Shown here: piece by piece, positions 648-34,805 of the stretch
Layout of the letters: every line of letters begins with the position of its first letter
Numbering within the stretch: the stretch's first letter is position 1
Assembly (NCBI RefSeq): GCF_017571465.1
Contig: NZ_JAGETV010000003.1
Location: forward strand, 62,001 to 126,000
Source of the DNA: Thiomicrorhabdus marina
GTDB lineage: Bacteria > Pseudomonadota > Gammaproteobacteria > Thiomicrospirales > Thiomicrospiraceae
Reading direction: 5' to 3'
DNA: 64,000 nt
The notes under the pieces: generated by a model
The model's input: only the letters and a program-made list of their open reading frames with translations
Database searches by the model: none
What the model was told of the DNA's origin: nothing
Position numbers and translations under genes: made by a program

Positions 648-3128
648 CTAGCCGGAGGTTTTCGAAGCCGGTTTAGCGGTCTTCTTAGTTCCCGTTTTTT
701 TCGCCGTTGTCTTTTTGGTTGTCGTTTTTTTCGCCGCGGCTTTCTTAGCAGGCGCCTTCTTCGCTGCGGCACGACCGCGTTTCTTCGGTTCTGGCGCTTC
801 ATCCAAACGCTTGATGCACTCTTCCAATGTTAACTGCAAAGCATCTTCATCCTTGGCAATCTTGGCATTTTTCTTGGTAGTCAAGTCAGTGATATAAGGC
901 CCCCAGCGCCCTTTCAGGATTTTGACATCGGCATTTTCCGGGAAGGTTTTGACAATTTTCTCGGCTTCCGCTTGGATTTTTGCTTCCACTAAAATCACGG
1001 CTTCTTCCAGCGTGATGCTTAACGGATCATACCCCTTAATCGGCGCATATTTCTTGGTGCCATATTCCAGATAAGGTCCGAAAGGCCCCTGCTTAGCAAT
1101 CAGCTTCTGACCGGCTTCAACGCCAAACGTCGAACCGTCCACTGCCGTAGCGCTGTATGATTCTGGCATTTCACCGACTTCACGAGGCAGCTTAAACAGT
1201 TCCAACGCATCTTCCAGCTTCAGCACATCCATTTTCTGCCCTGGCATCAGGCTAGCAAACTGCGGTTTCTCTTCATTTTCACCATCGCCCAGCTGCACAT
1301 AAGGACCGAAACGACCGATTTTAACAAACATCGGCTTGCCGGTTTTTGGGTCATTCCCCAGTAAACGCGCCTGTCCGGCTTCTTCACGAGAAACGTCTTC
1401 CGCCGCTTCCACTTTCGGATGGAACTGGCTATAGAAGTCTTCCAGCATATCTTGCCATTCCAACTTACCGCTGGCGATAACATCGAATTTATCCTCAACT
1501 TTAGCGGTAAACTGATAATCCAAAACATCACCAAAATGCTTGGTCAAAAAGTTGGTAACAATACCGGCAATATCGGTCGGAAACAGCTTATTCTTTTCCG
1601 AACCCGCCATTTCCGATAAAGTTTCAGCATTCATGCCTTCCGCATTCAAAGTCAGCTGGCGGTAATCACGCGGCGTACCTTCACGATCTTCCTTGACCAC
1701 ATATCCACGCTGCTGCACAGTATCGATGGTCGGCGCATAGGTTGATGGACGACCAATACCCATCTCTTCCAAAGTACGAACCAGACTGGCTTCGTTGTAA
1801 CGTGCCGGCGGGCGAGCAAAACTTTGACGAGCCGTCAGTTCGCCAAGCGACAAGGCTTGACCAATCTGCATCGGCGGTAAAATACCGTCATCGTTTTTAT
1901 TGCCGAAATCGTAAACTTTCAAGAAACCTTCAAAAGTGATCACCTCACCTTTGGCAACCAATTTATCGTCACTCAAATTACTAATCGCAATCTCAACTGT
2001 GGTGCGTTGCAATTGTGCATCGGCCATTTGCGAAGCAATTGCACGGCGCCAAATCAATTGGTACAGTCGCTGCTCATTGCGCTCGCCAGTGACTTCACTG
2101 ACATTAAAATCAGTCGGTCGAATCGCTTCGTGCGCCTCTTGCGCATCAGCGTTTTTGGTTTTGTAACGGCGGCTATGGCTGTATTCTGCACCGTAATTCG
2201 ATGTCACAACTTCTTGCGCTTGAGCAATCGCCATTTCCGACAAGTTGACCGAGTCGGTACGCATATAGGTAATTTTCCCAGACTCATACAAACGCTGTGC
2301 AATCATCATGGTCTGCTTAACCGAGAAGCCTAGCTTTGAGGAAGCTTCCTGCTGTAGCGTTGATGTGGTGAAAGGCGCTTTCGGGCTACGTTTTGCCGGC
2401 TTTTCTTCTAACGACTGCACCGACAATTGCGCTTTGCTGATTGCCATCAGATAAGCTTGCGCTTCTTCTTCGGAGTCAAAACTCGCATTGCGTTTTACAT
2501 CAATTTCACCACATGGCTGACCGGCTTGATCAAGCAACTGCAACTTACCTTGCACTTTGAATGAGAAGCTAGCCTCGAATTTTTCAATTTCTTTTTCACG
2601 TTCGACAATTAAGCGAACAGCCACCGACTGGACACGCCCAGCCGACAGGCCGGTACGGATTTTTTTCCATAGAATTGGCGACAGTTCAAAACCGACGATA
2701 CGGTCGAGGATTCGGCGCGCTTGCTGCGCATTAACCAAATCCATATCCACAGTACGCGGATTAGCGACCGCGTTTTGAATCGCTGGTTTAGTGATTTCGT
2801 GGAACACAATACGTTTGGTGTTGCTAACATCCAGTTTTAAGGCTTCCGCTAGGTGCCAAGCAATGGCTTCCCCTTCGCGGTCCTCATCCGTTGCCAACCA
2901 AACCGCATCGGCCTCTTTAGTCAGTTTACGAAGCTCGGCAACGTTCTTCTTTTTATCCGGAGAGATTTCATAATTCGGCTCAAAACGATTCGCTAAATCA
3001 ATCCCCATGCCTTTCTTTTGAATATCTCGAATATGGCCATAGCTCGAGCGGACAACAAAATCTTTGCCCAAATACTTTTCAATGGTTTTAGCCTTGGCCG
3101 GCGACTCCACTATCACCAAATTTGTCAT
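648..3128 (-). CDS. topA: DNA topoisomerase I (type IA)
   Basis: An 826-residue type IA topoisomerase that relaxes negative supercoils. The Toprim domain opens with IVESPAKAKTIEKYLG (about residues 6-21) and has the acidic DEDREGEAIAWH motif near 80. The catalytic tyrosine is in GKITYMRTDS near residue 290. In place of the cysteine zinc ribbons of E. coli TopA, the C-terminal half carries three Toprim_C-type repeats recognisable by GRFGPYVQ, GPFGPYLE and GRWGPYIT. The last 45 residues or so are a Lys/Ala/Thr tail likely to bind DNA non-specifically. It lies downstream of dprA in the same direction with a 163-bp gap that probably holds its own promoter. Confidence 0.96.
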   Translation of the reverse strand: MTNLVIVESPAKAKTIEKYLGKDFVVRSSYGHIRDIQKKGMGIDLANRFEPNYEISPDKKKNVAELRKLTKEADAVWLATDEDREGEAIAWHLAEALKLDVSNTKRIVFHEITKPAIQNAVANPRTVDMDLVNAQQARRILDRIVGFELSPILWKKIRTGLSAGRVQSVAVRLIVEREKEIEKFEASFSFKVQGKLQLLDQAGQPCGEIDVKRNASFDSEEEAQAYLMAISKAQLSVQSLEEKPAKRSPKAPFTTSTLQQEASSKLGFSVKQTMMIAQRLYESGKITYMRTDSVNLSEMAIAQAQEVVTSNYGAEYSHSRRYKTKNADAQEAHEAIRPTDFNVSEVTGERNEQRLYQLIWRRAIASQMADAQLQRTTVEIAISNLSDDKLVAKGEVITFEGFLKVYDFGNKNDDGILPPMQIGQALSLGELTARQSFARPPARYNEASLVRTLEEMGIGRPSTYAPTIDTVQQRGYVVKEDREGTPRDYRQLTLNAEGMNAETLSEMAGSEKNKLFPTDIAGIVTNFLTKHFGDVLDYQFTAKVEDKFDVIASGKLEWQDMLEDFYSQFHPKVEAAEDVSREEAGQARLLGNDPKTGKPMFVKIGRFGPYVQLGDGENEEKPQFASLMPGQKMDVLKLEDALELFKLPREVGEMPESYSATAVDGSTFGVEAGQKLIAKQGPFGPYLEYGTKKYAPIKGYDPLSITLEEAVILVEAKIQAEAEKIVKTFPENADVKILKGRWGPYITDLTTKKNAKIAKDEDALQLTLEECIKRLDEAPEPKKRGRAAAKKAPAKKAAAKKTTTKKTTAKKTGTKKTAKPASKTSG

Positions 3129-3291
3129 AAATTCCCAATACTTCTTATCAGTCGAATCACTTGTAAATCCAAGGATTCAATTATTAATCTTTTTTTTAGG
3201 GTGCATAATTTTTTTCGGATTTGCAATCAATTTTGTTTGCGAACAGAAAAATTCGCAGAAAGGATATATAAAAATAAGAGTGCTTTTGCCG

Positions 3292-4419
3292 TTAGTGAAG
3301 ACGCTGCCAACGTCCGGCAGAAAGTTTTTCCACCTGACCTTGCAATTCCAGCATCATTAACTCGGTCTGCAATGCAGAAAGCGGCATTTTACTGAGCACC
3401 AAGAGTTCATCTAGGGAAACTGGTTCAAACTCAATAAACTGCAATAATTTACGCGCCGACTCGGATAATTGCGCACCCTTATCATCGGAACTCGCAGACT
3501 TACCTTTCTCTTCCGGCAAGAGCGACAACTGTAATAAGGCGCCAAGTTCGGCAAACACATCTTCACCGGACTCAACCAACTTGGCGCCTTGCTTGATTAA
3601 CTGGTGGCAACCCTTAGCTTGTGGATTGTGAATCGACCCCGGAATCGCAAACACTTCGCGTCCCTGCTCATTGGCAGTACGCGCGGTAATCAGAGAACCG
3701 CTTTTCAAGCTCGCTTCGACCACCAAAGTACCGACACTTAAACCGCTGATAATGCGATTACGACGTGGAAAGTTTTTTGCCAAAGGGCGTGTGCCAAGCG
3801 GATATTCGGAGACCATCGCCCCCTCGGCAGCAATTTCTCGCGCCAAAGCTTGATTAGCTGCCGGATAGACTCGGTCTAAACCCGTCCCTAAAACAGCAAT
3901 GGTTTTACCAGTACCTTTTAATCCGCCTTGATGCGCGGCGGCATCGACACCGGCGGCCAAACCGGAAGTAATGGTCAACCCCTGTGAGGAAAGAAAACTG
4001 GCAAAATCGAGAGCATTGGCGATACCGGTTTTCGAGGCGTTACGACTGCCGACTACAGCAATCTGCGGGTCATTCAATAACTCGACACTGCCGCGCACCG
4101 CTAAAATCGGCGGCGCATCATCGATCTCTTTTAATAAACGTGGATAGTCACTATCCCAATAAGTCAGCCAACGTTGCGGAAAACCGCTACTGTCTTCTTG
4201 CCAAGCCAATGCTTGTGCAACTAAAGGCTCAGCAATGTCGTCTTGCAGCTGTTGCAGCTGCCAAGCATTGAAACCGCTGATTTTTTGAATTTCGTTATCA
4301 CTGGACTGCAAAACATTGCTAAAACTGCCGAAAGCCTGCAACAGAGCCTGTAACTGCTCCAGTTTGGGCTGCGCTTGATGCAAACGCAAGAGTTGTGGGA
4401 GTTCTGAAAACGCAGACAT
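3292..4419 (-). CDS. dprA: DNA-processing protein DprA/Smf
   Basis: DprA binds incoming single-stranded DNA in transformation and loads RecA. The Rossmann-like core shows IAVVGSRNAS, the SGLAAGVDAAAH motif, FPRRNRIISGLS and VVEASLKSGSLITA. A winged-helix-like C-terminal segment (SLDELLVLSKMPLSALQTELMMLELQG, in part) is present, as in many DprA proteins. A longer frame begins at a TTG at 4428, but the ATG at 4419 is preferred because it is the first standard start codon; no strong Shine-Dalgarno sequence distinguishes the two. It is divergent from def, the common gammaproteobacterial arrangement. No other competence genes are in the window. Confidence 0.93.
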   Translation of the reverse strand: MSAFSELPQLLRLHQAQPKLEQLQALLQAFGSFSNVLQSSDNEIQKISGFNAWQLQQLQDDIAEPLVAQALAWQEDSSGFPQRWLTYWDSDYPRLLKEIDDAPPILAVRGSVELLNDPQIAVVGSRNASKTGIANALDFASFLSSQGLTITSGLAAGVDAAAHQGGLKGTGKTIAVLGTGLDRVYPAANQALAREIAAEGAMVSEYPLGTRPLAKNFPRRNRIISGLSVGTLVVEASLKSGSLITARTANEQGREVFAIPGSIHNPQAKGCHQLIKQGAKLVESGEDVFAELGALLQLSLLPEEKGKSASSDDKGAQLSESARKLLQFIEFEPVSLDELLVLSKMPLSALQTELMMLELQGQVEKLSAGRWQRLH

Positions 4420-4522
4420 AAAATTCAACTTACAATTCAGCTATAATGCAGACAATTATTGATAACCCTGATTTACAGGCGCTAAAAACCTGTAAAAAAG
4501 TATAAACGCAAAGAGCATTTTA

Positions 4523-5041
4523 ATGGAAAAACACGCCGATTTACTCGACATTGTCCTGTACCCTGAGCAAGGCCTTCGCGAGATATGCAAACCGGTCGCT
4601 GAAATGAATGACCGCATCGACAAACTAATTGACGACATGTTTTACACTATGTACGACGCGCCGGGTATCGGCTTGGCCGCGCCGCAAATCGCCGTACAAG
4701 AGCGCGTAATCGTGGTTGATGTGTCAGAAAGCAAAGACGAACCTATCGCCCTGATTAACCCGAAAGTGATTCAAGAAGCCGGTAGCATCACTTGGGAAGA
4801 AGGCTGTTTATCTCTGCCGGGCGTTTATGGCAAGGTCAAACGCCCAAGCGACATTATCGTTGAAGGCATGAACCGTGACGGCAAGATCATCCAAATCGAA
4901 GCCAGCGAACTGTTAGCAGTCTGTTTACAGCATGAAATCGATCATTTGAACGGCGTACTTTTCACCGACCATCTATCCGGTTTGAAACGCACTCGCGCTC
5001 TGCAAAAGTTCCGTAAACTGCAAGCCGAAGGCGAAAAATAA
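4523..5041 (+). CDS. def: Peptide deformylase
   Basis: Removes the formyl group from nascent N-terminal methionine using a metal ion. All three family motifs are present: GIGLAAPQ at residues 48-55, EGCLSLP at 93-99 with the metal-ligand Cys, and HEIDH at 137-141 with two His ligands and the catalytic Glu. The 172-residue length is normal. Its TAA stop overlaps the ATG of fmt by one base, so the two enzymes of the N-formylmethionine cycle are translationally coupled. A TATAAT hexamer at 4442-4447 upstream is a possible -10 box, but I see no convincing -35. Confidence 0.97.
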
Positions 5042-5979
5042 TGAGCCAGCCATTGAAGATTATTTTTGCCGGAACACCGGATTTTTCGGTCGCACCTTTG
5101 CAAGCGTTGCTTGATTCCGAACACGACGTGATTGCCGTCTATACACAACCGGATCGCCCAGCCGGACGCGGTCGAAAACTAACGGCCAGTCCGGTCAAGC
5201 AACTCGCTCTAGAACACGACCTGCCGGTTTATCAGCCATTGAGTTTGCGCGACGAAGCCGCACAAGCTGAAGTCGCCGCCCTAAATGCCGATGTCATGGT
5301 GGTGGTTGCTTACGGTTTAATTTTGCCGAAAGCGGTATTGGAGATGCCGAAATTGGGCTGTCTAAATATCCACGCTTCATTGTTGCCAAGATGGCGTGGT
5401 GCGGCACCAATCCAGCGTTCAATTCAATCCGGCGACGCGGAAACCGGCATCACCATTATGCAGATGGATGTCGGTTTAGACACCGGCGATATGCTGTATA
5501 AAATCGCAACACCAATCAGTGCCGACGACTCTTCACAAACCCTGCATGACCGTTTAATGGACATGGGCGCGCAAGCGATTATCGACACCTTAGCCGACCT
5601 GCCAAACTTGCAGAAAAAAGCTGAAGGGCAAGACGAGTCGCTCGTGACCTATGCGGAAAAACTCAGCAAAGCAGAAGCGGAAATCGACTGGACTAAACCG
5701 GCCAGCGAACTGCAACGCGCCGTGCAAGCTTATAACCCTTGGCCGGTCGCTTTCTGTAACTTCCAAGACAAACCACTGCGTATCTGGAGCAGCCGCGTTA
5801 TCGAAGCTAGCACCGATGCAACTCCGGGAACCGTATTAGCGGTCGAAAAAGACGGCGTGCAAGTACAGACCGGTGACGGCGTTCTATGCCTGACTCAAGT
5901 GCAACCGGCCGGTAAAAAAGCCATGGCAGCCTATGACTTTGCGCAAGCGCGTCAACTGCAAGGACAGCTTCTACAATGA
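5041..5979 (+). CDS. fmt: Methionyl-tRNA formyltransferase
   Basis: Transfers a formyl group from 10-formyl-tetrahydrofolate to initiator Met-tRNA. The N-terminal hydrolase-type domain holds the catalytic set matching E. coli Asn106/His108/Asp144: here Asn109 and His111 in [17 protein letters not shown], and Asp147 in DVGLDTGD. The C-terminal OB-like tRNA-binding domain follows (PWPVAF region). At 312 residues it is of usual length. It overlaps def by 1 nt and rsmB by 4 nt (ATGA). Confidence 0.97.
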
Positions 5980-7310
5980 GTGAGCAGCCAAGCCAAAACA
6001 GCGGCGCACACACTCGCTTTGTCGCGTTGAAAATGTGTCTACAAGTGGTCGAGCACGGCCGCTCTTTGAGCCAAGTATTACCGGAAGGTTTAGCACAATT
6101 CAGTGATAAGCGTGAACGCTCGTTTGTGCAAAACTTGGTGCTCGGCACCTTGCGCTGGCAATTTCGCTTAATGGCGATTCGCTCGCAACTCTTAAAGAAA
6201 AAACTGAAAGCCAAAGACGAAGACGTCAATCAACTGATTCTGCTTGGCTTATTCCAAATTTTGCATACTGAAACCGCTGAACATGCGGCGGTTTCGGAAA
6301 CCGTCAATGTCACCGCCAAGCTAAAAAAGCCGTGGGCGAAAGGTTTAGTAAATGGTATCCTGCGTAACTTTATGCGTGAAAAAGACGCCATCTGCGCCGA
6401 AGTTGATCTGAAACCGGCGCAGAAATATTCGCATCCGCAGTGGTTCTTCAAAGCGATGCGCAAAGCCTATCCTGAACACTGGCAAGAAATTCTTGAAGCC
6501 AATAACCAAATCGCGCCGCTGACCTTGCGCAATAACGCCTTGGAACAGTCGCGCGATGAATTATTGCAAGCCTTTGCAGAAGCCGACATCCAAGCCAGCG
6601 AGCATCCGCATTGTCAGCAAGGCATCGTGTTGGAACAAAGCACCGATATCACCCAACTGCCGACCTATGACGAAGGCGGTTTTAGCGTACAGGATGCCGC
6701 AGCACAACAGGCTGCGCAAATCCTGCAACCACAAGCAGGCCAAAAAATCCTAGACGCTTGTGCAGCACCAGGCGGTAAAACTGCACACTTACTGGAATAC
6801 GCCAATGCCGATTTAGATTTATTGGCACTGGAAAAAGAGCCCGAGCGCCTGGATAGATTGGCGGAGAACTTGCACCGTCTTGGATTAGAGTGCGATTATC
6901 GAGTTGGTGATGCCAGTCAAGCAAGCGACTGGTGGGACGGTCAACCTTTTGACAAAATCCTTCTGGATGCACCTTGTTCGGCAACAGGCATTATTCGCCG
7001 TCACCCAGATATTAAATGGCACCGTATCCCGGAAGACATCGAAGAGCTGGTCGAAATTCAGCAAAAAATTCTTGATGAGTTATGGCAAACTCTGAAACCC
7101 GGTGGACAGATGCTGTATGCAACCTGTTCGGTACTGCCACAAGAAAACCGCGAACAGATGCAAGCTTTCTTGGAACGTACCAACGATGCAGAGATGATTC
7201 CGTTAGCGGTGGACTGGGGTTGGCAAGACAGTGAAATCGGACGTCAAATCCTACCGGGGCAAGACGGCATGGACGGCTTTTACTACTGCTTGCTGCAAAA
7301 GCAAGCGTAA
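5976..7310 (+). CDS. rsmB: 16S rRNA m5C967 methyltransferase RsmB (Sun/Fmu)
   Basis: SAM-dependent methyltransferase that makes m5C967 in 16S rRNA. The N-terminal NusB-like RNA-binding domain spans about residues 10-140. The C-terminal Rossmann methyltransferase has [13 protein letters not shown] for SAM binding, [18 protein letters not shown] with one active-site Cys, and [14 protein letters not shown] with the catalytic Cys. Its 444 residues match the family. It overlaps the fmt stop by four bases in the standard def-fmt-rsmB order. Confidence 0.96.
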
Positions 7311-24727: not shown

Positions 24728-27700
24728 ATGAGTTCACGCGCGGATCGTATTTCATTACTAAAATCACTTCTTGCCGAAAGAGTCGTCATTCTAGATGGCG
24801 CTATGGGGACTATGATTCAAAATATGAACCTTACGGAAGAGGATTTCCGTGGCGAGCGTTTTGCCGATTACCACATGGACATCAAAGGCAATAACGACAT
24901 TTTGGCAATGACCAAGCCGGAAGTGATTCGCGACATCCATCTAGCTTTCTTACGTCAAGGGGCGGACATAGTTGAAACCAACTCGTTCAACGCCACCACC
25001 ATTGCCCAAGCCGATTACGACATGCAAGAGGTGGTCACGGAGCTTAACCTTGCCTGCGCCAAAGTCGCACGTGAAGCCTGTGAGATTGCTGAATCGGAAG
25101 ACGGCAAACCGCGTTTTGTCGCCGGTGTGCTTGGGCCAACAAACCGGACAGCCTCGATTTCGCCAGATGTCAATGACCCGGGTTTCCGTAATACTTCTTT
25201 TGACGAACTGGTTGAAGCATACAAACAAGCGACTCATGCATTACTTGAAGGTGGCGTCGATACCATTCTGATTGAAACCATTTTCGACACCCTAAACGCC
25301 AAAGCCGCCATTTTCGCGGTGAAAGAAGTGGAAATCGAAGTTGGTTATGAAGTGCCAATTATGTTAAGTGGGACGATAACGGACGCAAGTGGAAGAACCC
25401 TTTCCGGCCAAACCACTGAAGCTTTCTATAATGCGGTGGCGCACGCCGAACCACTTTCGGTCGGCTTAAACTGTGCGCTAGGGCCTGAAGAACTCCGTCC
25501 TTATGTACAAGAGCTAAGCCGCGTGTGTGAAACCTATGTGTCGATTCACCCAAATGCCGGTCTGCCGAACGAGTTTGGGGAATACGACGAAACGCCGGAA
25601 CAAATGGCGGCAGAAATCGCCGTTTGGGCAGAGCGTGGCTGGATTAATATTATTGGTGGTTGTTGTGGTACGACTCCTAACCACGTGCAAGCGATGGCTG
25701 AAGCCGCGCAAGCGCATCCGCGTCGCGAATTGCCAGAAGTCAATCCAGCTTGCCGCCTATCCGGTCTTGAGCCGCTGAATATTGATGAAAGTTCTCTGTT
25801 CGTCAATGTCGGTGAGCGTAATAACGTCACCGGTTCGGCACTGTTCAAACGTCTAATTATCGAAGAAAACTACGAAGAAGCCATCGAGATTGCCGTGAAG
25901 CAGGTGCAAGACGGCGCACAGATTATCGACGTCAATATGGACGAAGGGATGCTGGATGCCAAGGCGTGCATGGTCAAATTCCTCAATCTACTTGCCTCAG
26001 AACCGGAAGCATCGCGCGTGCCGATTATGATTGACTCCTCAAAATGGGACGTCATTGAAGCCGGTCTAAAGTGCATTCAAGGTAAAGGGGTGGTCAACTC
26101 CATCTCGTTGAAAGAAGGCGAAGAAGCCTTTATCGAACACGCACGCAAGGTAAAACAATACGGTGCAGCGACCATTGTTATGGCATTCGATGAAGACGGT
26201 CAGGCCGATACCCTTGAGCGCAAAATCGAGATTTGTGAGCGTTCGTATCGCGTATTGGTTGATAAGGTTGGTTTCCTACCGCAAGACATTATTTTCGACC
26301 CGAATATCTTCGCGGTTGCGACAGGTATTGAAGAGCACAATAACTACGGTCTGGACTTTATCAACGCGGTCACTTGGATTAAAGCCAATCTGCCGCACGC
26401 CAAGATTTCCGGCGGTGTCTCCAACGTCTCTTTCTCGTTCCGTGGTAATAATCCGGTGCGTGAAGCGATTCACTCGGTATTCCTGTACTACGCAATTAAA
26501 GAAGGTATGGACATGGGTATCGTTAACGCCGGTCAAATGGCGATTTACGATGACTTACCTGAAAAACTACGTTTAGCCGTAGAAGACGTGATTTTGAATA
26601 AAGACCCTGAAGCCGGTGAGCGTCTGCTAGAAGTCGCTGAAGAGTTCCGTGGCGATGGTTCAGCAGCGGGTAAGGTGCAAGATACCGCTTGGCGTGAAGA
26701 ATCGGTTGAGAAACGTCTGGAGCACGCGCTGGTCAAAGGGATTACCGATTTCATCGAAGAAGACACCGAAGAAGCCTATCAAAAACTCGGCTCCGGTCTA
26801 GCCGTTATCGAAGGCCCGTTAATGGACGGCATGAACGTGGTCGGTGATCTGTTCGGTTCAGGGAAAATGTTCCTGCCGCAGGTGGTGAAATCGGCGCGCG
26901 TTATGAAGCGTGCAGTCGCCTATCTTGACCCTTATCTGCTGGCGGCGAAAACCGAAGGTCAGCAGCAAGGGAAAATCGTTATGGCGACCGTTAAGGGCGA
27001 CGTGCACGATATCGGTAAAAACATTGTCGGCGTAGTTCTGCAATGTAATAACTTCGAGGTGATCGACCTTGGTGTAATGGTGCCTGCCGAGAAAATTCTC
27101 GATACAGCGGTAGCCGAAGGCGCGAATGTAATCGGGCTTTCTGGCTTGATTACCCCTTCGCTGGAAGAGATGGTCAATGTCGCCAAATTGATGAAAGAAC
27201 GCGGGATGAATTTACCTCTGCTTATCGGTGGTGCGACCACATCTAAAGCGCACACGGCAGTGAAAATCGAGCCACAATACGATCATCCAGTAGTGTACGT
27301 TAAGGATGCATCGCGTGCGGTGGGTGTGGCGCAAAGTCTGATTTCTAACGATCTGAAAGCCGACTTTGCCGCGAAGATTCGTGCCGAATACGAAACCGTG
27401 CGTGAAGAGCGTAAAGCCCGTGCCAAGCAGGTAAAACGTGTGCCTATTAATAAGGCGCGTGAAAACAAAATTGACATTGATTGGAAAGATTACCGGCCGG
27501 TAAAACCTTCATTCTTAGGTGAACGCGTCATTGAAGACTTCCCATTGGAAAAACTGCTAGAGCGTTTTGACTGGTCACCGTTCTTCCAATCTTGGGAGCT
27601 ACATGGCCTCTTCCCGCGTATTCTGGATGACAAGGTGGTCGGTGAAGAAGCGCGTAAGGTCTATGCCGATGCCAAAGAGATGCTAGAAAAAATCATCGCC

Positions 27701-28432
27701 GAAAAATGGCTGACCGCCAAAGCGGTTTACGGTTTCTATCCGGCGAATGCGATTGGCGATGACATTGAAGTTTATACTGACGAGTCGCGCACCGAAGTGC
27801 TGACTGTGCTGCATAATCTGCGTCAACAGGCGGAGAAAAAACGTGGCGGTTACAACCAATGTTTGTCCGATTATGTAGCACCAAAAGAGACTGGCATTGC
27901 TGACTATGTTGGTCTATTCGCGGTGTCCGGTGGTATCGGTTGTGACGAAAAAGCAGCGGAATTTGAAGCCGAACACAACGACTATGAAGCGATTATGTTG
28001 AAAGCATTGGCTGACCGTTTTGCCGAAGCCTTTGCCGAAACGCTACATGAAATGGTGCGTAAAGACGAATGGGGCTATGCGCCAGACGAAGCTTTAGATA
28101 ACGAAGACCTTATTAAAGAGCGTTATCAAGGGATTCGCCCTGCGCCGGGTTATCCGGCCTGTCCGGAACACACCGAAAAAGGCACCATTTGGGAACTACT
28201 GAAACCGTCGGAAGCGATTGGTCTAGACCTAACCTCTAGCTACGCCATGACTCCGACCGCGGCGGTTTCCGGTGTCTATTTCTCGCATCCAGAATCGAAA
28301 TACTTCGGTGTCGGTTCGGTCGGTCGCGACCAGGTCGAAGACTACGCCAAGCGTAAAAAATGGAGCATCGAAGAAGCCGAGAAATGGCTAGCACCGAATC
28401 TTGGATATGACCCTGAAGACTTTGCGCAGTAA
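24728..28432 (+). CDS. metH: Cobalamin-dependent methionine synthase
   Basis: A 1234-residue, full-length MetH that transfers a methyl group from methyl-tetrahydrofolate to homocysteine through cobalamin. Modules run in order: homocysteine-binding domain starting [13 protein letters not shown] and including the zinc-binding GGCCGTT; pterin-binding domain ([28 protein letters not shown]); B12-binding cap and Rossmann domain with DVHDIGKN, whose His760 is the cobalt ligand; and the C-terminal AdoMet-binding reactivation domain ([26 protein letters not shown]). It requires B12. The ATG is supported by conserved sequence from the first residues. A HepT-MntA pair follows after 27 nt in the same direction. 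Confidence 0.98.
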
Positions 28433-28459
28433 TATAAAAAACCGAGAGGTTAGAAGATT

Positions 28460-28879
28460 ATGGAATCACCCAATCAGTTAGATTTAACCGTACTAAGCAA
28501 AGCCATTAATTCATTATCAGTAGCTTTAAATGAATACAAAAAAGACACTAGCAATGAATTTGTCCGTGATTCCTGTATTCAGCGTTTTGAATATTGTTAT
28601 GACCTTTCAGCGAAGTTTATTAAACGTTACTTGGCTCTAACTTCAGAAAATCCTACGGAAATTAAAGAGCTCAGTTTTCAAAATCTGATTCGTACCGCTT
28701 ACGGCAAAGGGCTACTGAAAAACAGTTGGGATGAATGGTGGCAATATCGCGATAACCGTAATGTCACGTCTCATGGCTATGACGAAAATAAAGCCATTAA
28801 AGTCGTCACTGAACTACCGCCGTTTTATCAAGAAATGCAATACCTGCTGAACAGCCTTCAGGAGCGCAATGACTTCTGA
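28460..28879 (+). CDS. hepT: HEPN-domain toxin, HepT/HI0074 family
   Basis: A 139-residue all-alpha protein of the HEPN group (formerly 'nucleotidyltransferase substrate-binding', HI0074 family). The RNase active-site motif RX4HXY is present as RNVTSHGY, with Arg100, His105 and Tyr107. In characterised HepT-MntA systems this protein is an RNA-cleaving toxin, and the motif Tyr is AMPylated by the antitoxin. The start has a GAGAGG-type site. It lies 27 nt after metH and overlaps mntA by 11 nt, so toxin and antitoxin are translationally coupled and may ride on the metH transcript. Function here is by family and motif, not tested. Confidence 0.88.
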   Translation: MESPNQLDLTVLSKAINSLSVALNEYKKDTSNEFVRDSCIQRFEYCYDLSAKFIKRYLALTSENPTEIKELSFQNLIRTAYGKGLLKNSWDEWWQYRDNRNVTSHGYDENKAIKVVTELPPFYQEMQYLLNSLQERNDF

Positions 28880-29207
28880 CATTGACTTTGGCTTAACGCC
28901 TGCTGAACGAGAGATTATTCAAGCTATTCTGGCAAATTACCTACCAGAAAATTGCTCTGTTTGGGTCTTTGGCAGTCGCGCCAAAGGCAGGGCCACCTAT
29001 CAATCCGACCTTGATTTGGCAATTGAATGCCAATCGCTCCTCGACAGCAAAATTATTAGCCGTCTTAAATACGAATTTGAAGAATCCAAATTGCCATTTA
29101 TGGTGGATATAGTAGACTTTAATTCTGTCAGTGATTCATTTAGAGAAATTATTGAGCGGGATAAAAAGCCAATCACTTTGCAAAAGCAATCGAGTCTGAC
29201 CCCATAG
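28869..29207 (+). CDS. mntA: MNT-domain nucleotidyltransferase antitoxin MntA
   Basis: A 112-residue minimal nucleotidyltransferase. The catalytic GSX10DXD motif is exact: Gly35-Ser36, ten residues, then Asp47-Leu-Asp49, within WVFGSRAKGRATYQSDLDLA. A third acidic residue is in FMVDIVDFN. Family members neutralise HepT by adding AMP to its motif tyrosine. A strong AGGAG lies 5 nt before the ATG inside hepT. The last codons (KQSSLTP and the TAG stop) are encoded by the left arm of an inverted repeat at 29182-29211, so the original C-terminus may have been altered by insertion of that repeat. Confidence 0.88.
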   Translation: MTSDIDFGLTPAEREIIQAILANYLPENCSVWVFGSRAKGRATYQSDLDLAIECQSLLDSKIISRLKYEFEESKLPFMVDIVDFNSVSDSFREIIERDKKPITLQKQSSLTP

Positions 29208-29211
29208 CTTT
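29182..29211 (+). repeat. Left arm of a 30-nt imperfect inverted repeat
   Basis: This 30-nt stretch, with core GAGTCTGACCCC, matches the reverse complement of 29762-29792 at 28 of 31 aligned positions (one inserted base, two substitutions). It covers the 3' end and stop codon of mntA. The two arms bracket the AT-rich ORF at 29258-29761. The core resembles REP-type termini associated with Y1 tyrosine transposases, but that comparison is from memory. Confidence 0.75.
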
Positions 29212-29257
29212 CAGTATCGCAATATATCTGTACTCAAAATTAGGCTAATAACAAGTT

Positions 29258-29761
29258 ATGACCATGAAAGAATTTTTATTCATAATTCGAGAAATAATAG
29301 TCATTATTTTTACAGGTGGTATTCCGGTCTTAATTGCTTACATTATTGGCGGGGAAGATGAACTTGAAAAAACAATATCAGGCCTACTAGCTCCTGAAAT
29401 TTTTTTGTATTACAGTATAATTCCTCCAATTCTTTTTGCCACACTTCACTATACTGATAAATATTTTTATATTAATCCAACAAGTAAATTCCAAAGTACA
29501 TTAAACTTTACTATCTCGATTTTCCATGAACTAAGTTCAAACATAATCGGAATTTTTCGCCTTGCTAGTGGAATATTAATAAGCATTCCCATTCTTGTCT
29601 TAGTAGTGGAACCTGAAAGTTTTAATTCGACAATCCAATTTATTCCTTATGGAATTTTATCTGGAATAGAAGTTGTAATTTTTTATTGGTGGTTTTCCAA
29701 AATCGAAATTAAGTTCAAGTCAAAACTAAACGCTCACAACAAACTTGAACTTAAATGTTAA
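29258..29761 (+). CDS. Small AT-rich membrane protein, unrecognised
   Basis: A 167-residue protein with about four hydrophobic segments (around residues 6-28, 43-62, 90-115, 125-148) and a basic, polar C-terminus (KIEIKFKSKLNAHNK). I recognise no family or motif. Base composition is visibly more AT-rich than the flanking genes, with many Ile, Phe, Asn and Lys codons, which suggests recent acquisition. It starts at ATG 29258, with a second in-frame ATG at 29264, and no strong ribosome-binding site. It lies entirely between two inverted repeats and directly after the HepT-MntA pair, so a defence or immunity role is possible but unsupported. Confidence 0.6.
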   Translation: MTMKEFLFIIREIIVIIFTGGIPVLIAYIIGGEDELEKTISGLLAPEIFLYYSIIPPILFATLHYTDKYFYINPTSKFQSTLNFTISIFHELSSNIIGIFRLASGILISIPILVLVVEPESFNSTIQFIPYGILSGIEVVIFYWWFSKIEIKFKSKLNAHNKLELKC

Positions 29762-29792
29762 AAAGCTATGGGGGGCAGACTCCATTGCTTTT
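29762..29792 (-). repeat. Right arm of the imperfect inverted repeat
   Basis: A 31-nt stretch that pairs with 29182-29211 (28 of 31 positions). It occupies all the space between the stop codon of the membrane ORF and the end of the LRR-kinase gene apart from a few bases. In RNA the two arms could also form a long-range stem around the ORF. Confidence 0.75.
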
Positions 29793-29795
29793 TAT

Positions 29796-31082
29796 TCAAC
29801 CCATTTTCTGTAATAAGTCTGCCAGTTCAATCTCATCATTTAGCAGTTGTTGATGCCAAGTTTGCAACTGTTCTGCACATGCATTATCCACATCGGTTTG
29901 TTTCCATAGATCTTCAATAAAATGCGCTAGGGCGCGTTTTTCGATTCTGAGCATAGCTTGAATTTGTTCGGCGGTTAGGCTGTTCATATGCGATGCTGCG
30001 CCAAAGTCACCCAGCAGTAAATGCCCGCCTTTATCAATCAGCACATTGTGTGCATAAAAATCACCATGCACCAATCCTTGCTGGTGCAGGTGATGCAGTG
30101 CAGAGGTGGCTTGTTGCAGTAGTTTCAGCAAGGTGGTTTGGGTTAAAGAAAAGCCTTCGGCAAACTGGTCGCGGGTGCAGCTTTGCAAACTCGGCGGCAG
30201 TCCCAGATTTTGATAATGGCTTGGAATCAGTTCCATTACCAACCCGAGTTTTTCACCGTGAATTTTGGCTTCAACATTAACTAAATTCGGATGCGTTCCG
30301 GCAGAAATACAGGCACGCATTTCATCTTCGGGATAGCCGTCGCTAGTGACGTCGCCCTTAAAAATTTTGACCGCTTTGTGCGCGCCGGTTTCAAGTTCTT
30401 CTGCCAGATAAATATGCCCTGACGCCCCCTGCCCTAATAGCTCTTTGAGCTCAAACGCTTCGAGCTCGGAAAGCAATAATTCATCTTGCGCAGTCGGTTC
30501 AGTTCGGCAAAACGGATTACCCGCATAGGCACACCACGCTAAGCTTGGCATTTTTACCAACACATCCGGAAATTCCGTTAGCCGGTTGGCCGAGATACGA
30601 ATTAACTCTAAACGCTCACAGCTCGCCAAAGTGGTTGGCAGAGCCACCAATTGATTACTGGCTAAGGCTAACTTTTGTAGTCGAGGTGTTTTATCAAAAC
30701 AGTCCGGCAATTGAGCAATCTGGTTATCGGTCAAAATCAACCAACGCAATTTAGGCGGCAAGGCATTCTCAGAAACCCGTTTAATCTGACAGCTTTTAAA
30801 ACCAATCATTTCTAAATTCTGACATTGCCCCAACACCTCAGGAAGTTCCGTAAACGGATTATTTGAGGCAAATAGAATTTTCAGTTTTTTGAAACGCGGT
30901 AAATCACCCGGCAAAGTGCTCAGGTTATTGCCGCCTAAATCAAGAATTTCCAGTGAATTGGTGAGCGCATAAAGCTCTGGTGGAAACTCGTTTAAGTTCT
31001 CCGAAAGTTGAATTCGTAACAAACCATCACTGTTTTTCTGCACATCAAGCTGCTGTTGAATCCGCTGTTGTATATCGTTCAA
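29796..31082 (-). CDS. Leucine-rich-repeat protein kinase
   Basis: A 428-residue cytosolic fusion. Residues about 20-195 are leucine-rich repeats of the LxxLxLxxNxLxxLP type (SLEILDLGGNNLSTLP, LQKLALASNQLVALP). A Hanks-type kinase follows: glycine loop LGQGASGHIY, AVKIF lysine, catalytic loop HGDFYAHNVL with Asp and Asn in place, and GDFGAA for the DFG motif. The HRD arginine is replaced (HGD), so activation-loop phosphorylation may not be needed. No signal peptide or membrane helix is seen. The start is a TTG at 31082, chosen because AGGA lies 8 nt upstream and no suitable ATG exists near the N-terminus. Substrate is unknown. Confidence 0.85.
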   Translation of the reverse strand: MNDIQQRIQQQLDVQKNSDGLLRIQLSENLNEFPPELYALTNSLEILDLGGNNLSTLPGDLPRFKKLKILFASNNPFTELPEVLGQCQNLEMIGFKSCQIKRVSENALPPKLRWLILTDNQIAQLPDCFDKTPRLQKLALASNQLVALPTTLASCERLELIRISANRLTEFPDVLVKMPSLAWCAYAGNPFCRTEPTAQDELLLSELEAFELKELLGQGASGHIYLAEELETGAHKAVKIFKGDVTSDGYPEDEMRACISAGTHPNLVNVEAKIHGEKLGLVMELIPSHYQNLGLPPSLQSCTRDQFAEGFSLTQTTLLKLLQQATSALHHLHQQGLVHGDFYAHNVLIDKGGHLLLGDFGAASHMNSLTAEQIQAMLRIEKRALAHFIEDLWKQTDVDNACAEQLQTWHQQLLNDEIELADLLQKMG

Positions 31083-31231
31083 AATTGAGTTCCTATTATT
31101 TTGTCTGCAGGTGAGCTTTGCCTATATTTTTGTATCCACCTATCCAGTGCACATCACTTGAAGTCAAAGATAGCGACGTTATGCGACTCTATTCGCTAAA
31201 ATTAACATCTATTCGATAACCGCATTGGGCA

Positions 31232-32005
31232 ATGCACTATTTTATGACATTATTCGACAATCAAAACATCGGCTTATTTGAAAACAATGGTGCAAACTAT
31301 GCCACCTATAGGCCCGTTTATCCCCAAGAATTAGCCACGGCGCTTTCGCAACTCTGCCAAAATCATCAAACCGCTTTAGATGTCGGCTGCGGGACTGGGC
31401 AACTCACATATTTATTAAGCAAACATTTCGTTTCAGTGATCGGAACCGACACCAGCAGAAGCCAGTTGGAATTTGCGCAAACTGCAGAGAACATTCGCTA
31501 TTTGCACGAATCTGCCGAAGATACCCGTTTAGAAAATGACTCTGTTGATTTGGTTGTGGTCGCCCAAGCAGCACATTGGTTTAACTTGGACAGCTTTTAT
31601 CAAGAAGTTAAGCGGATTGCCGTGCAGGATGCCGTTATCGCTCTTATCAGCTATGGGGTTCCTTATATAGAAGCGAGCGTCAATTCCGTCTTTCAACAAG
31701 GTTACTGGCAACAAATTCACCAGTACTGGCCGGATGAACGAAAACACGTGGAAAACGGTTATATTGAACTGCCCTTCCCCTTTCAAGAAATCGACTTTCC
31801 CGAGACCTTTATTCACAAAGAAATGAACTTGGATGAATTTATCGGCTACATTCGTACTTGGAGCGCCTATAAAAAAGCGCAAGAACGACAAGAAGTAACG
31901 GCTTTTACTTTATTCTTTGAACAGTTGGAAAGGTCTTGGGGAAATAGAGCGAAAACACACAAAGTATCTTGGCCTATTTCGGTTAGAGCTGGAAAAATTG
32001 CCTGA
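31232..32005 (+). CDS. Class I SAM-dependent methyltransferase (UbiE-like)
   Basis: A 257-residue methyltransferase with a strong motif I, ALDVGCGTGQLTYLLS (about residues 49-64), an acidic motif II (VIGTDTSRSQLEFA) and a VVVAQAAHWFNLDSFYQEVKR segment typical of the methyltransferase-11/trans-aconitate-like group, where AAHWF is often seen. Either ATG 31232 or ATG 31244 could be the start; the longer is given. It is divergent from the LRR-kinase across about 150 bp and convergent with yeiH. Substrate is not evident. Confidence 0.82.
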   Translation: MHYFMTLFDNQNIGLFENNGANYATYRPVYPQELATALSQLCQNHQTALDVGCGTGQLTYLLSKHFVSVIGTDTSRSQLEFAQTAENIRYLHESAEDTRLENDSVDLVVVAQAAHWFNLDSFYQEVKRIAVQDAVIALISYGVPYIEASVNSVFQQGYWQQIHQYWPDERKHVENGYIELPFPFQEIDFPETFIHKEMNLDEFIGYIRTWSAYKKAQERQEVTAFTLFFEQLERSWGNRAKTHKVSWPISVRAGKIA

Positions 32006-32010
32006 CCGGG

Positions 32011-33039
32011 TTAAACCCCTAATAGTTTGACTAAGAAATAACCGCCAAACATCAGGAGGACAAACAGGATTGCGGCGAGAATAAAAGCGCTGGAACCAAC
32101 CTGCTTCATTTTACTGATTTGCGTTTCCATGCCCAAAGCGACCATCGCCATAGTCAATAGAAAAGTATCCAGTTGGTGAATGGCAACAACCCATTCTCTT
32201 GCTAGCAAATCCAGAGAGTTGAATCCGGCTACTGCCAGAAAACCGACCGCAAACCAAGGAATCGAAGCGACTAGCGATGATTGCTTGCCAGCAGAGGCCG
32301 TGACACGACGCGCCATAAACCACCCGACAATCAAAATCACCGGAACAATCATTAGCACACGTGTCATTTTTTCGATTACTGCGTATTCTTGTGCGATTTC
32401 CGGTAGCTCGCTAGCGGCACCAACAACTTGCGCAACCTCATGCAGAGTACTCCCAAAATAGAGCCCTTTCGCTTTGTCGCTCAAGGCAAATAATTGCATA
32501 CCATCCAAAACCGGATAGAGAAACATCGCTAAGGTTCCAAACACCACTACGGTGGCTACCGCAACAGCGGTTTGATGGCTTTGTGCTTTGGTAACCGGTT
32601 CCAATGCCAATACCGCTGCCGCACCGCAAATGCCACTGCCGGCAGAGGTCAACAAAGCCGTTTCCGGTTCCATTTTGAGCACTTTGGTTCCAATCCAAAA
32701 ACCGACCGCTAGAATCGTTGCAACAACGATCGCCGCAAGCACAACGCCTTGCCAGCCGATGGAAACAATTTCCTGAAAGGTAATCGAAAAACCGTACAGA
32801 ATAATTGCAAGACGCAAAATTTTGCGAGCCGAAAAACTGATACCAGCATGCCATTCCACAGGGATATTCTGATGCAGCGTGTTGCCATAAATTGCGCCAA
32901 GCAAAATTCCGACAATAAGCGGGCTGAGCCCTAAGGCCATCACCCATGAAGTTTGTGAAATGGAGTAGGCCGCGATGGCAAATAAAGCGACCAATAAAAT
33001 ACCGTTAAGGGTGTGTCCCCGTTGCGTTGCTGAAAACAT
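32011..33039 (-). CDS. yeiH: YeiH-family (UPF0324) putative sulfate/sulfite exporter
   Basis: A 342-residue integral membrane protein with about ten hydrophobic helices. Family blocks include LGLSPLIVGILLGAIYGN, TSAGSGICGAAAVLA and GSTLHEVAQVVGA. UPF0324/YeiH members are annotated as sulfate exporters; the substrate is inferred, not shown. It has AGGAG 8 nt before the ATG and is divergent from a LysR-type gene 101 bp away, the same arrangement as yeiE-yeiH in enterobacteria, where the LysR protein controls the transporter. Confidence 0.88.
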   Translation of the reverse strand: MFSATQRGHTLNGILLVALFAIAAYSISQTSWVMALGLSPLIVGILLGAIYGNTLHQNIPVEWHAGISFSARKILRLAIILYGFSITFQEIVSIGWQGVVLAAIVVATILAVGFWIGTKVLKMEPETALLTSAGSGICGAAAVLALEPVTKAQSHQTAVAVATVVVFGTLAMFLYPVLDGMQLFALSDKAKGLYFGSTLHEVAQVVGAASELPEIAQEYAVIEKMTRVLMIVPVILIVGWFMARRVTASAGKQSSLVASIPWFAVGFLAVAGFNSLDLLAREWVVAIHQLDTFLLTMAMVALGMETQISKMKQVGSSAFILAAILFVLLMFGGYFLVKLLGV

Positions 33040-33140
33040 AAGACTGGCTCCTAAAATAACTACCTTGTGTTAGAAGTCATTTTATCGACGGCAAACCATT
33101 GTAAAATCTTATTAATTAATTTTAATTATCGGAAAAACTG

Positions 33141-34004
33141 ATGATAAAAGCCAGCTATCTACAGACCTTTGCTAAGGTTGCCGAACTGAACAACATTACT
33201 CTGGCAGCAGAGGCCTTACACCGCTCGCAACCTGCCATTTCAGGACAACTTAAAGCTTTGCAGGATGCATTTTCGGAACCGCTTTATCTGCGCAAAGGCG
33301 CTGGAATCGAACTAACCGAATTAGGTAAATCTTTACTGCCCTACGCACAGCGACAAGCAAAACTGTTAATTGATGCTGAAACCTTCCGTATGCAAATGGA
33401 ACAGAATCAAACTATTGCCTTAAAGGTCGGCGCAACCGCCACTATTGCCAACTATGCGTTACCGACGCTGATTGCACGCTGTCATCAGGCTTATCCAATG
33501 ATTAAAATTGATCTATTAGTCGGCAACACCCAGAAAGTGCTGAGCCAACTCAATACGCTGGACGCCGCTTTTGTGGAAGGCAGGGTACAAGGCATTCGTA
33601 ATACCGGTTACTCCCCTTCTTCTTGGAAACAGGATGAGTTGATTGTCATAATGCCTAAGGATCATCCTTTAGCTAAACAGGCAGAAATCAGCTTAAAGTC
33701 ACTTATTCACTATCCGCTGATTATGCGCGAACAGGGTTCGGGAACGCGGGAAATAATTGAACTGGCGTTTAAACACAAAGGTTTGAATTTTGAACCAATT
33801 ATTGAACTTTATAGTACCGAGTCGATTAAAGAGGCGGTGCGTGTCGGACTCGGTATTGCACTTATATCCAAACTTGCGGTAGACACGCTTCCATCGACCA
33901 TTCACTGGCAGGCTTTGCGGCCAAAAGAGCAGATTATTCGCCCTCTTTCCCTTCTCTTACCGGAACTTGGAGCCAATAACCATTGGATTCAGAAATTGAT
34001 TTAA
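33141..34004 (+). CDS. LysR-type transcriptional regulator (YeiE-like)
   Basis: A 287-residue LysR regulator. The N-terminal winged helix-turn-helix covers residues 5-63 (FAKVAELNNITLAAEALHRSQPAISGQLKALQ in part), followed by a substrate-binding-protein-like effector domain (about 90-285) with MREQGSGTREIIELAF, the anion-binding-type loop seen in CysB/YeiE-like regulators. It probably binds the 101-bp intergenic region and controls both itself and yeiH; a sulfur oxyanion is the likely effector, by analogy only. Confidence 0.87.
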   Translation: MIKASYLQTFAKVAELNNITLAAEALHRSQPAISGQLKALQDAFSEPLYLRKGAGIELTELGKSLLPYAQRQAKLLIDAETFRMQMEQNQTIALKVGATATIANYALPTLIARCHQAYPMIKIDLLVGNTQKVLSQLNTLDAAFVEGRVQGIRNTGYSPSSWKQDELIVIMPKDHPLAKQAEISLKSLIHYPLIMREQGSGTREIIELAFKHKGLNFEPIIELYSTESIKEAVRVGLGIALISKLAVDTLPSTIHWQALRPKEQIIRPLSLLLPELGANNHWIQKLI

Positions 34005-34024
34005 TACTCTAAAGCGCGGTTCTG

Positions 34025-34420
34025 TTACTTATCTTTTCGCGCACGTTGGATTTCTCGCTGGGTAAACAGATAAAGCTGTTCGATTTTATCGCGTGCCCAA
34101 TCGGTTTTACGCAGAAAAGTTAAACTCGATTTGATACTTGGATTGCTTTTAAAACAATTCATTCGCGTTTTTTGCGCCAAACCTTCCCAGCCATAATACT
34201 CTTGCAATTCTATAACAATGCTTTTTAAGGTAATGCCATGCAAAGGGTTATTACGCTGAGAGGACGTCTGCCGTAAATTCGGTTTATTGGATTTTGACTT
34301 GGCTTCCTGTGTTACCGTCTGTTTAGCTTTAATCACCTGCACGGTTACTTTTTCTGCTGAGCCCTGCTGCGCTTTTAACTTAAGTGTTTTAGGTTTATTG
34401 TCTGTATTTTTATCAGCCAC
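34025..34420 (-). CDS. VF530 family (DUF2132) DNA-binding protein
   Basis: A 131-residue protein. The C-terminal 75 residues are a clear VF530 domain ([62 protein letters not shown]), a small helical fold proposed to bind DNA. The N-terminal 50 residues are a Lys/Gln/Thr-rich disordered extension absent from minimal members. It starts at GTG 34420, with GGAG 8 nt upstream. No operon partner is apparent; the cellular role is unknown. Confidence 0.85.
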
Positions 34421-34805
34421 CGGCTTTCTCCTGCAAAATTTCTTCTCCCTTACATTATTGGCAATTGAGGCTAAATCTCAATTAATAGCAACCGAGAAAC
34501 TATTCGACGCCTATCTATATGCACGGCAATCTCAGAGAAACGCCGCCTAAAATTTATCTCTTCAAACTTCTCGCTGAAGTCAATGGGGGCTTATTCTGCG
34601 CTTGCTTAGCTTTATCCCGTCCCTACTTAAAGCAGCGCTTTCCTATTTGTTTGCATAATCTTGCCAAAAATCAGTGTTAACTTATATTCGCTGGCTGTGT
34701 TGTATGCGACATCGGTCATTTTTGCAGTGACTTTATCAGGGTTTCTCATTAAATTAGATAAAACGCACTCACATCGAAATTATCTGCGTTTGCGCTCAGG
34801 AGATT
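34421..34805. other. Intergenic region upstream of the TolC-MacAB operon
   Basis: About 385 bp without a convincing gene. It contains a 7-bp inverted repeat AATTGAG/CTCAATT (34463-34469 with 34477-34483) and, at 34574-34608, a solitary copy of the arm of the inverted-repeat element found at 41796-41987. The promoter for the export operon should lie between that repeat and 34805. Confidence 0.6.
34574..34608 (+). repeat. Solitary copy of the dispersed repeat arm
   Basis: About 35 nt starting CTGAAGTCAATGGGGG and continuing CTTATTCTG. It aligns with both arms of the element at 41796-41987: nearly identical over the first 25 nt, diverging in the last 10. No inverted partner lies within a few hundred bases, so this looks like an orphan or decayed end. 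Confidence 0.7.

Follow-up and report, generated by a model that had tools for sequence, protein, structure and literature searches.

Two repeats of RAYT type, each at a gene 3' end, probably bracket an acquired orphan gene beside a HepT-MntA-like pair in Thiomicrorhabdus marina

The described systems closest to the locus presented here are the TIRs of TIRYT genes (TIRtrons), which, according to the available portion of PMC3733652, carry the motif GGGGWSAS and have copies dispersed as singles and dimers. The same portion of that source locates REPs chiefly downstream of genes, in the gaps that separate unidirectional or convergent neighbors, and gives MITEs a length of 70-300 bp and no coding capacity. 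For RAYT subclass 2.1, the accessible part of PMC6006769 reports a C-terminal HTH; 20 of the 26 TIRYTs printed there fall in this subclass and 6 in others. We analyzed a stretch of 64,000 nucleotides of Thiomicrorhabdus marina (hereafter the window), in which two short arms in inverted orientation enclose a single AT-rich open reading frame (the ORF) between a HepT-MntA-like pair and a kinase gene. The features of the locus are as follows:

24728..28432, + strand: metH-like methionine synthase gene, named by eye from its sequence; left border of the variable segment.
28460..28879, + strand: hepT, NTase_sub_bind / HI0074 family (PF08780, 109.5 bits; TIGR01987, 82 bits).
28869..29207, + strand: mntA-like nucleotidyltransferase gene (PF18765, 49.7 bits; PF01909, 35.9 bits).
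29182..29211, + strand: left arm, a degenerate type A repeat (RAYT-associated hairpin) with its GACCCC end toward the ORF.
29258..29761, + strand: AT-rich hydrophobic ORF of 167 aa, placed by reading frame, composition and searches.
29709..29754, + strand: 12-bp perfect inverted repeat, 22 nt apart, within the last codons of the ORF (RNA fold z -4.4).
29762..29792, - strand: right arm, the other type A repeat of the pair, whose stem is strengthened and which resembles a terminator on the + strand.
29796..31082, - strand: LRR protein kinase gene, convergent with the ORF (PF00069, 66.1 bits; LRR_8, 52.8 bits).

Aligned inversely, the left arm (30 nt) and the right arm (31 nt) match in 28 of 31 columns; the remaining three are two mismatches and a 1-nt gap. 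Their local-alignment score of 45 exceeded that of all 300 dinucleotide shuffles of the surroundings (maximum 34, mean 22.3), and the ungapped parts of the pair were also recovered by an inverted-repeat scan of the region. The left arm encodes the final seven codons of mntA (KQSSLTP) together with its stop (29205-29207), and the right arm starts immediately 3' of the ORF stop, leaving a gap of 3 nt to the stop codon of the kinase (29796-29798).

In composition the ORF stands apart from its surroundings, with a G+C content of 29.8% compared to 45.5% for the window, below every one of the 635 sliding 504-base windows, and a third-position G+C of 23%. Judging by its three 19-residue hydropathy peaks above 1.6, the product looks like a membrane protein; a single-sequence structure model was uninformative (mean pLDDT 40). 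A search of 62 genomes of the order matched its own genome and found no relative in the 61 others. At the level of the class (369 genomes searched), nine other genomes gave matches at E 3e-4 to 0.009, all of them short stretches within longer frames that we attributed to chance similarity among membrane proteins. Nothing was found in GTDB contigs or viral contigs (searched by exact matches to six 8-residue peptides only), in phage and plasmid searches, or among Pfam, NCBIfam and PADLOC models at E up to 1, and PHROGs yielded one function-unknown family at E 0.032. The search for a second copy of the ORF with its arms returned this one copy only. Given the toxin-antitoxin neighbor, our guess would be a small accessory or defense role.

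The neighboring hepT and mntA-like genes overlap, and no transposase gene was recognized among the ORFs overlapping 25500-34500, whose translations were read by eye. Most of what the original prediction had said about the layout of the locus held up: inverted arms of 30 and 31 nt with 28 of 31 positions matching, a left arm that gives mntA its last codons and stop, a right arm abutting the stop of the ORF, an AT-rich ORF of membrane-protein type between them and no transposase. Its distance of 4 nt from the right arm to the kinase stop should read 3 nt. It had also named a HepT-MntA pair; HepT is secured by PF08780 and its partner is a Polbeta-type nucleotidyltransferase, which, at 51.9 bits, falls under the cut-off of 60 of the NCBI MntA equivalog model NF047752. 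Neither of the two findings that it had said would count against it occurred: among the 62 genomes searched, the ORF is present in 1, its own, so that no relative has it without the repeats, and arms restricted to this one place were not the result either.

We then considered what the arms are. Other genomic copies were found, so the arms are not confined to this site, and they belong to a repeat that we call type A, an imperfect palindrome of ~31 nt in which AAAAKCAAT and ATTGMTTTT enclose the loop SGAGTCTGACCCC. Across 40 copies, a set that includes weak copies that stricter filtering would remove, a mean of 6.0 of the 9 stem pairs are formed, compared to 3.4 at 2000 random places, and at least 7 pairs are formed in 42.5% of the copies versus 1.7% of the random places. 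The most plainly varying stem position holds T-A in 22 of 40 copies, G-C in 5 and no standard pair in 9, so that stem pairing is kept in most type A copies, not in all. Where ATTGM is the commonest form, both arms read ATAGC, which occurs in 2 of the 40 copies (the arms alone), with ATAGA in one more; sharing this rare variant, the arms resemble sister copies and not unrelated arrivals.

The core of the repeat, GAGTCTGACCCC, was present in 62 of 369 sampled genomes of the class and in 54 of 271 genera, with one control match among the rows listed. With at most one mismatch allowed, the core occurred in 32 of 58 genomes, its own included, at 69 places compared to 13 for the reversed pattern; 10 of these 69 places have the form GGGTCTGACCCC, all from one distant genome. 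Within the genus, genomes have 1 to 4 type A copies each (in 21 of the 32 genomes having any). The host genome has three, one of which lies on contig C11; the others are the arms, so that two of the three are less than 600 bases apart. One-mismatch places of the 12-base core on its contigs C15 and C81 lack the stem sequence and were not accepted as copies, and two core matches in viral contigs, both inside longer reading frames, were taken as chance. The combined two-arm pattern was absent from GTDB contigs, a collection from which the host's own genome may be missing. Searched as a string in published text, the core gave, among the matches listed, apparently none on bacterial repeats. At a few loci, seen without a control, type A repeats seem to gather near toxin-antitoxin genes, a trend that we do not claim. 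In several genomes, type A repeats were also seen to extend into open reading frames (L042, L044, L050, L189-L192), where they give recurring peptides, among them SIESDPI, QSSLTPL and SMGSDSI.

The link to transposases came from the loci with a Y1_Tnp domain (PF01797), which was matched in 33 of 60 genomes of the order. A scan of 30 such loci (L119-L147 and L004) for flanking repeats placed type A at both ends of L130 and L132 and at one end only of L131. Further units with type A at both ends (L059, L189, L192, L193) bring the apparently intact RAYT units to six, and PF01797 is present in all six transposases. Two of these genes were scanned with the NCBI REP_Tyr_transpos model NF047646 and passed its cut-off of 80 (L130, 82.9 bits; L132, 86.6 bits); the transposases of L004 (78.0 bits) and L137 (76.0 bits) fell slightly under it. 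Only Y1_Tnp lay above cut-off in the six type A transposases, and neither a C-terminal HTH nor a DnaA_C domain was matched at E up to 1; as these enzymes are without the C-terminal HTH of subclass 2.1, they were assigned to no RAYT subclass.

Other RAYT loci have other repeats. A type B repeat, GGGTAGCGTCCCC, stands at both ends of L126, L127, L128, L129 and L004; ACTCTGACCCC stands at both ends of L137 and forms an outward pair on one side of the transposase stretch in L141 and L143. The repeats of L144 are of another kind (GGGTCTGTCCCC, two mismatches off the core) and were excluded from type A; one of them, behind the gene, points inward. For 15 of the 30 loci, several of them IS200-like, there was no flanking-repeat match. 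The sole Y1_Tnp match of the host genome is L004, which lies on contig C81, a contig other than that of the window. Adjoining this intact type B RAYT on its upstream side (L004, 1245-1430), two ACTCTGACACC-type repeats surround what by eye is the apparent N-terminal start of another RAYT.

Since type A repeats stand at both ends of RAYT genes, the arms are terminal repeats of one RAYT subfamily and, judged by sequence, are dispersed RAYT-associated repeats and not a local accident. The RAYT origin at which the original prediction had guessed is thereby borne out, and inverted repeats that had no explanation are now linked to a widespread RAYT-associated group that tails mntA and brackets accessory genes. 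We consider it extremely improbable that the arms match each other by chance, or that they are simply a terminator without a mobile origin; terminator-like as the right arm is, the pair scored above all 300 shuffles, and its arms match a core that is spread through the class and found at RAYT ends.

The orientation of the repeats was compared next. All six apparently intact RAYT units have their GACCCC ends turned outward (GGGGTC ... GACCCC), as do two internally deleted ones, L191 and L195, in which ~38 and 53 N-terminal RAYT residues remain between the repeats. The window pair has its GACCCC ends inward, opposite to all eight RAYT units seen with both ends. Among the matches listed, 30 type A pairs lie at most 2 kb apart, 21 of them outward, 6 direct and 3 inward, and outward pairs closer than 300 bases account for 18 of the 30. 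The listing for 58 genomes adds 3 outward and 6 direct pairs, and its inward pair is the window's own only. Type B pairs, again among the matches listed, were outward in 12 cases, direct in 14 and inward in 2. The three inward type A pairs are that of the window (host genome, G000), one beside a RAYT in G171 and one between two outward pairs in G255. In G171 the order is repeat, RAYT, repeat, gene, repeat, and the inward pair encloses the greater part of a gene whose PEP-CTERM match falls slightly under cut-off. On contig C11 of the host genome, an inward type B pair ~1.35 kb apart brackets a Sel1 gene.

As the arms of the window face the wrong way, the pair would not itself be a mobile unit; of the outward ends and the RAYT gene or remnant that mark a TIRtron, the window pair and its ORF have neither. 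The original prediction had taken the arms for the two ends of one such unit, which their orientation, seen in 3 of 30 pairs among the matches listed, does not support. It had further proposed that a cassette delivered the small membrane gene, for which we found one copy of the ORF with arms and no strictly matching empty site, and that the pattern was without a known name, although RAYT-flanking TIRs, TIRYTs and TIRtrons are already named in the available portion of PMC3733652.

A modified form of the proposal deserves separate consideration. The ORF and its two inward repeats might be a non-autonomous cassette that moved as a unit after a type A RAYT had cut it in trans, for example through alternative processing of a circular intermediate with the RAYT and the ORF on its two sides; the available text of PMC3733652 prints a model in which inward or outward dimers derive from circular intermediates. 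We judge this unlikely. The orientation is opposite to that of eight RAYT units (two of them deleted), the cassette exists in a single copy with no matching empty site, and the host's only Y1_Tnp found is of another subfamily with GGGTAGCGTCCCC ends, yet an ORF foreign in composition and not found in 61 other genomes of the order, as well as the row of repeat, RAYT, repeat, gene and repeat in G171, would fit such a unit. So would the sister-like arms, and it is their shared rare ATAGC that keeps us from rating this explanation any lower. A wider version, which we hold to be decidedly unlikely, has RAYT-type transposases also carrying unrelated single genes and toxin-antitoxin pairs as inward repeat-gene-repeat cassettes. 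These would be made by the other way of opening the circular intermediate and would feed chromosomal turnover spots; the ORF studied here, Sel1 on C11 and the gene bracketed in G171 would count as three examples. Mobility of inward pairs, if real, would give domesticated RAYTs a gene-moving role, and with three bracketed genes found this role is testable.

The site itself varies among relatives. The kinase, matched in 15 of 60 genomes of the order including its own, is the right border of the variable segment. In G026, nucleotide similarity breaks off at the metH stop; in G024 it continues for 5 more bases. In both it resumes inside the kinase gene near 29822; the variable segment has no alignment over 33 bases with either locus. 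G026 holds two other ORFs at the site, with a ACTCTGACCCC-like repeat between kinase and cargo. G024 holds a zeta-toxin gene (PF06414), a second copy of the metH tail of ~103 bases and then HepT and MntA; this MntA shares 38% identity over 84 residues with its counterpart in the window and ends 8 nt from the kinase stop, and both the repeats and the ORF are missing there. A strictly matching empty site was not found, and G024, with its divergent MntA, is the nearest to one. Its metH-tail copy (L106, G024:C1:249500-257500, positions 4065-4167) spans 103 bases of the 3' end at 82.5% identity and lies between the zeta-toxin gene and HepT-MntA.

In a survey of 30 loci downstream of metH, 16 were read downstream and 7 were without a downstream stretch. 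Among the 16, HepT-MntA directly follows metH in G010 and G019, comes after other genes in G024 and is left as a remnant in G009. In G033, HepT-MntA lies between tandem copies of sequence containing the metH tail, and a ACTCTGACCCC repeat stands immediately 3' of the stop of the mntA-like gene. HepT of the relatives was named by eye, and MntA of G010, G019, G024 and G033 by search. With other genes held at the site in relatives, the spot gains and loses toxin-antitoxin genes, and the ORF is one more accessory gene at this turnover spot between metH and the kinase. We also noted that the tandem units of G033 (L115, G033:C1:2281000-2286500, positions ~1551-2179 and 2964-3134) are ~140 bases long, consist of a metH-tail copy and a AGGCTAAAGCCTGCGCCCC palindrome, and occur on both sides of HepT-MntA; the array looks like the product of repeated insertions at the metH 3' end.

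A second turnover spot is present in the host genome (L110, G000:C11:22000-32000, positions 4029-7025), where a QSregVF_b gene, two tandem YefM-YoeB pairs, type B repeats, one type A repeat and the Sel1 gene between inward type B repeats follow one another. At the equivalent place, G024, G011, G003 and G031 have a type A repeat and other neighboring genes.

Turnover of this kind raises another explanation, in which the repeats are homology anchors and recombination at hot spots swaps the enclosed gene without transposition of the pair. The QSregVF_b locus speaks for it, as a type A repeat is found there in all five genomes with differing cargo: Sel1 in G000 and other long ORFs elsewhere, YefM-YoeB pairs in G000 and G011 (in G011 by similarity to G000) and a PemK-type pair in G024. 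However, we saw no exchange whose breakpoints lay in the repeats, and repeats of 30 nt are short for efficient homologous recombination, and we regard this explanation as very unlikely.

The two arms differ in predicted folding. The right arm gave RNA fold z-scores of -4.5 on the + strand and -3.9 on the - strand, versus 0.12 for the left arm, which is no better than shuffles. The right arm has changes that lengthen the stem, and a T run follows it on the + strand. From the longer stem, the z of -4.5 and the T run, the right arm is plausibly the terminator of the ORF and, less strongly (z -3.9), of the kinase. Such a role is weakened by the frequency of terminator-like sites, which are no commoner than in shuffles: the match at 29768-29785 is one of 3 in 2.8 kb, compared to 2.9 in shuffles.

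Taking these results together, we think it probable that two repeats of RAYT type, located where genes end, bracket a horizontally acquired ORFan and that the pair is not a mobile unit. The arms are copies of a RAYT-type terminal inverted repeat, presumably recognized by a Y1 tyrosine (HUH) transposase that was not found in the host genome. One lies at the 3' end of mntA and the other at that of the kinase, which are common locations for repeats of this type. The AT-rich membrane ORF would be a gene acquired at this turnover spot for accessory genes, which is bordered by metH and the kinase. Once in place, the left arm would have turned into the mntA tail, whereas the right arm would have gained its stronger stem and may now stop transcription of the ORF and of the kinase from both sides. 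The sister-like arms, the clustering of type A copies and the inward Sel1 and G171 pairs count against this reading, as they fit a paired structure. We conclude that the window pair probably consists of leftover repeats at a hot spot of gene exchange and is not a new mobile cassette.

Compared to known systems, the pair is like MITEs in having inverted repeats with no transposase between them, and unlike them in enclosing a gene and in being found in one copy only. With IS200/IS605 and derivatives, the type A units share a Y1 HUH enzyme and hairpin ends, but L132 (24.7) and L130 (25.4) score below the IS200 equivalog cut-off of 55. As a HepT-MntA toxin-antitoxin system, the neighboring pair has both genes in overlapping arrangement, and it differs in an MntA-like tail encoded by a repeat and in a score under the MntA model cut-off. 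REPs, REPINs and BIMEs with RAYT (TnpA-REP) are likewise short RAYT-linked hairpins, and close outward pairs are common for type A, as in REPINs; in contrast to canonical REPs, type A shows no conserved GTAG foot (GT[AG]G lies near either foot, on either strand, in 6 of the 40 copies examined, at no fixed position) and has few copies per genome in the genus. From the TIR/TIRYT system the window pair departs by its inward ends, the unrelated ORF inside and the absent transposase. The likeness to TIRs is one of description and motif, as given in the available portion of PMC3733652: both are inverted repeats around Y1 tyrosine transposase genes with dispersed copies, and GGGGTCAG, contained in the left arm and in the type A consensus, fits GGGGWSAS, with the right arm, which reads GGGGGCAG, one base off.
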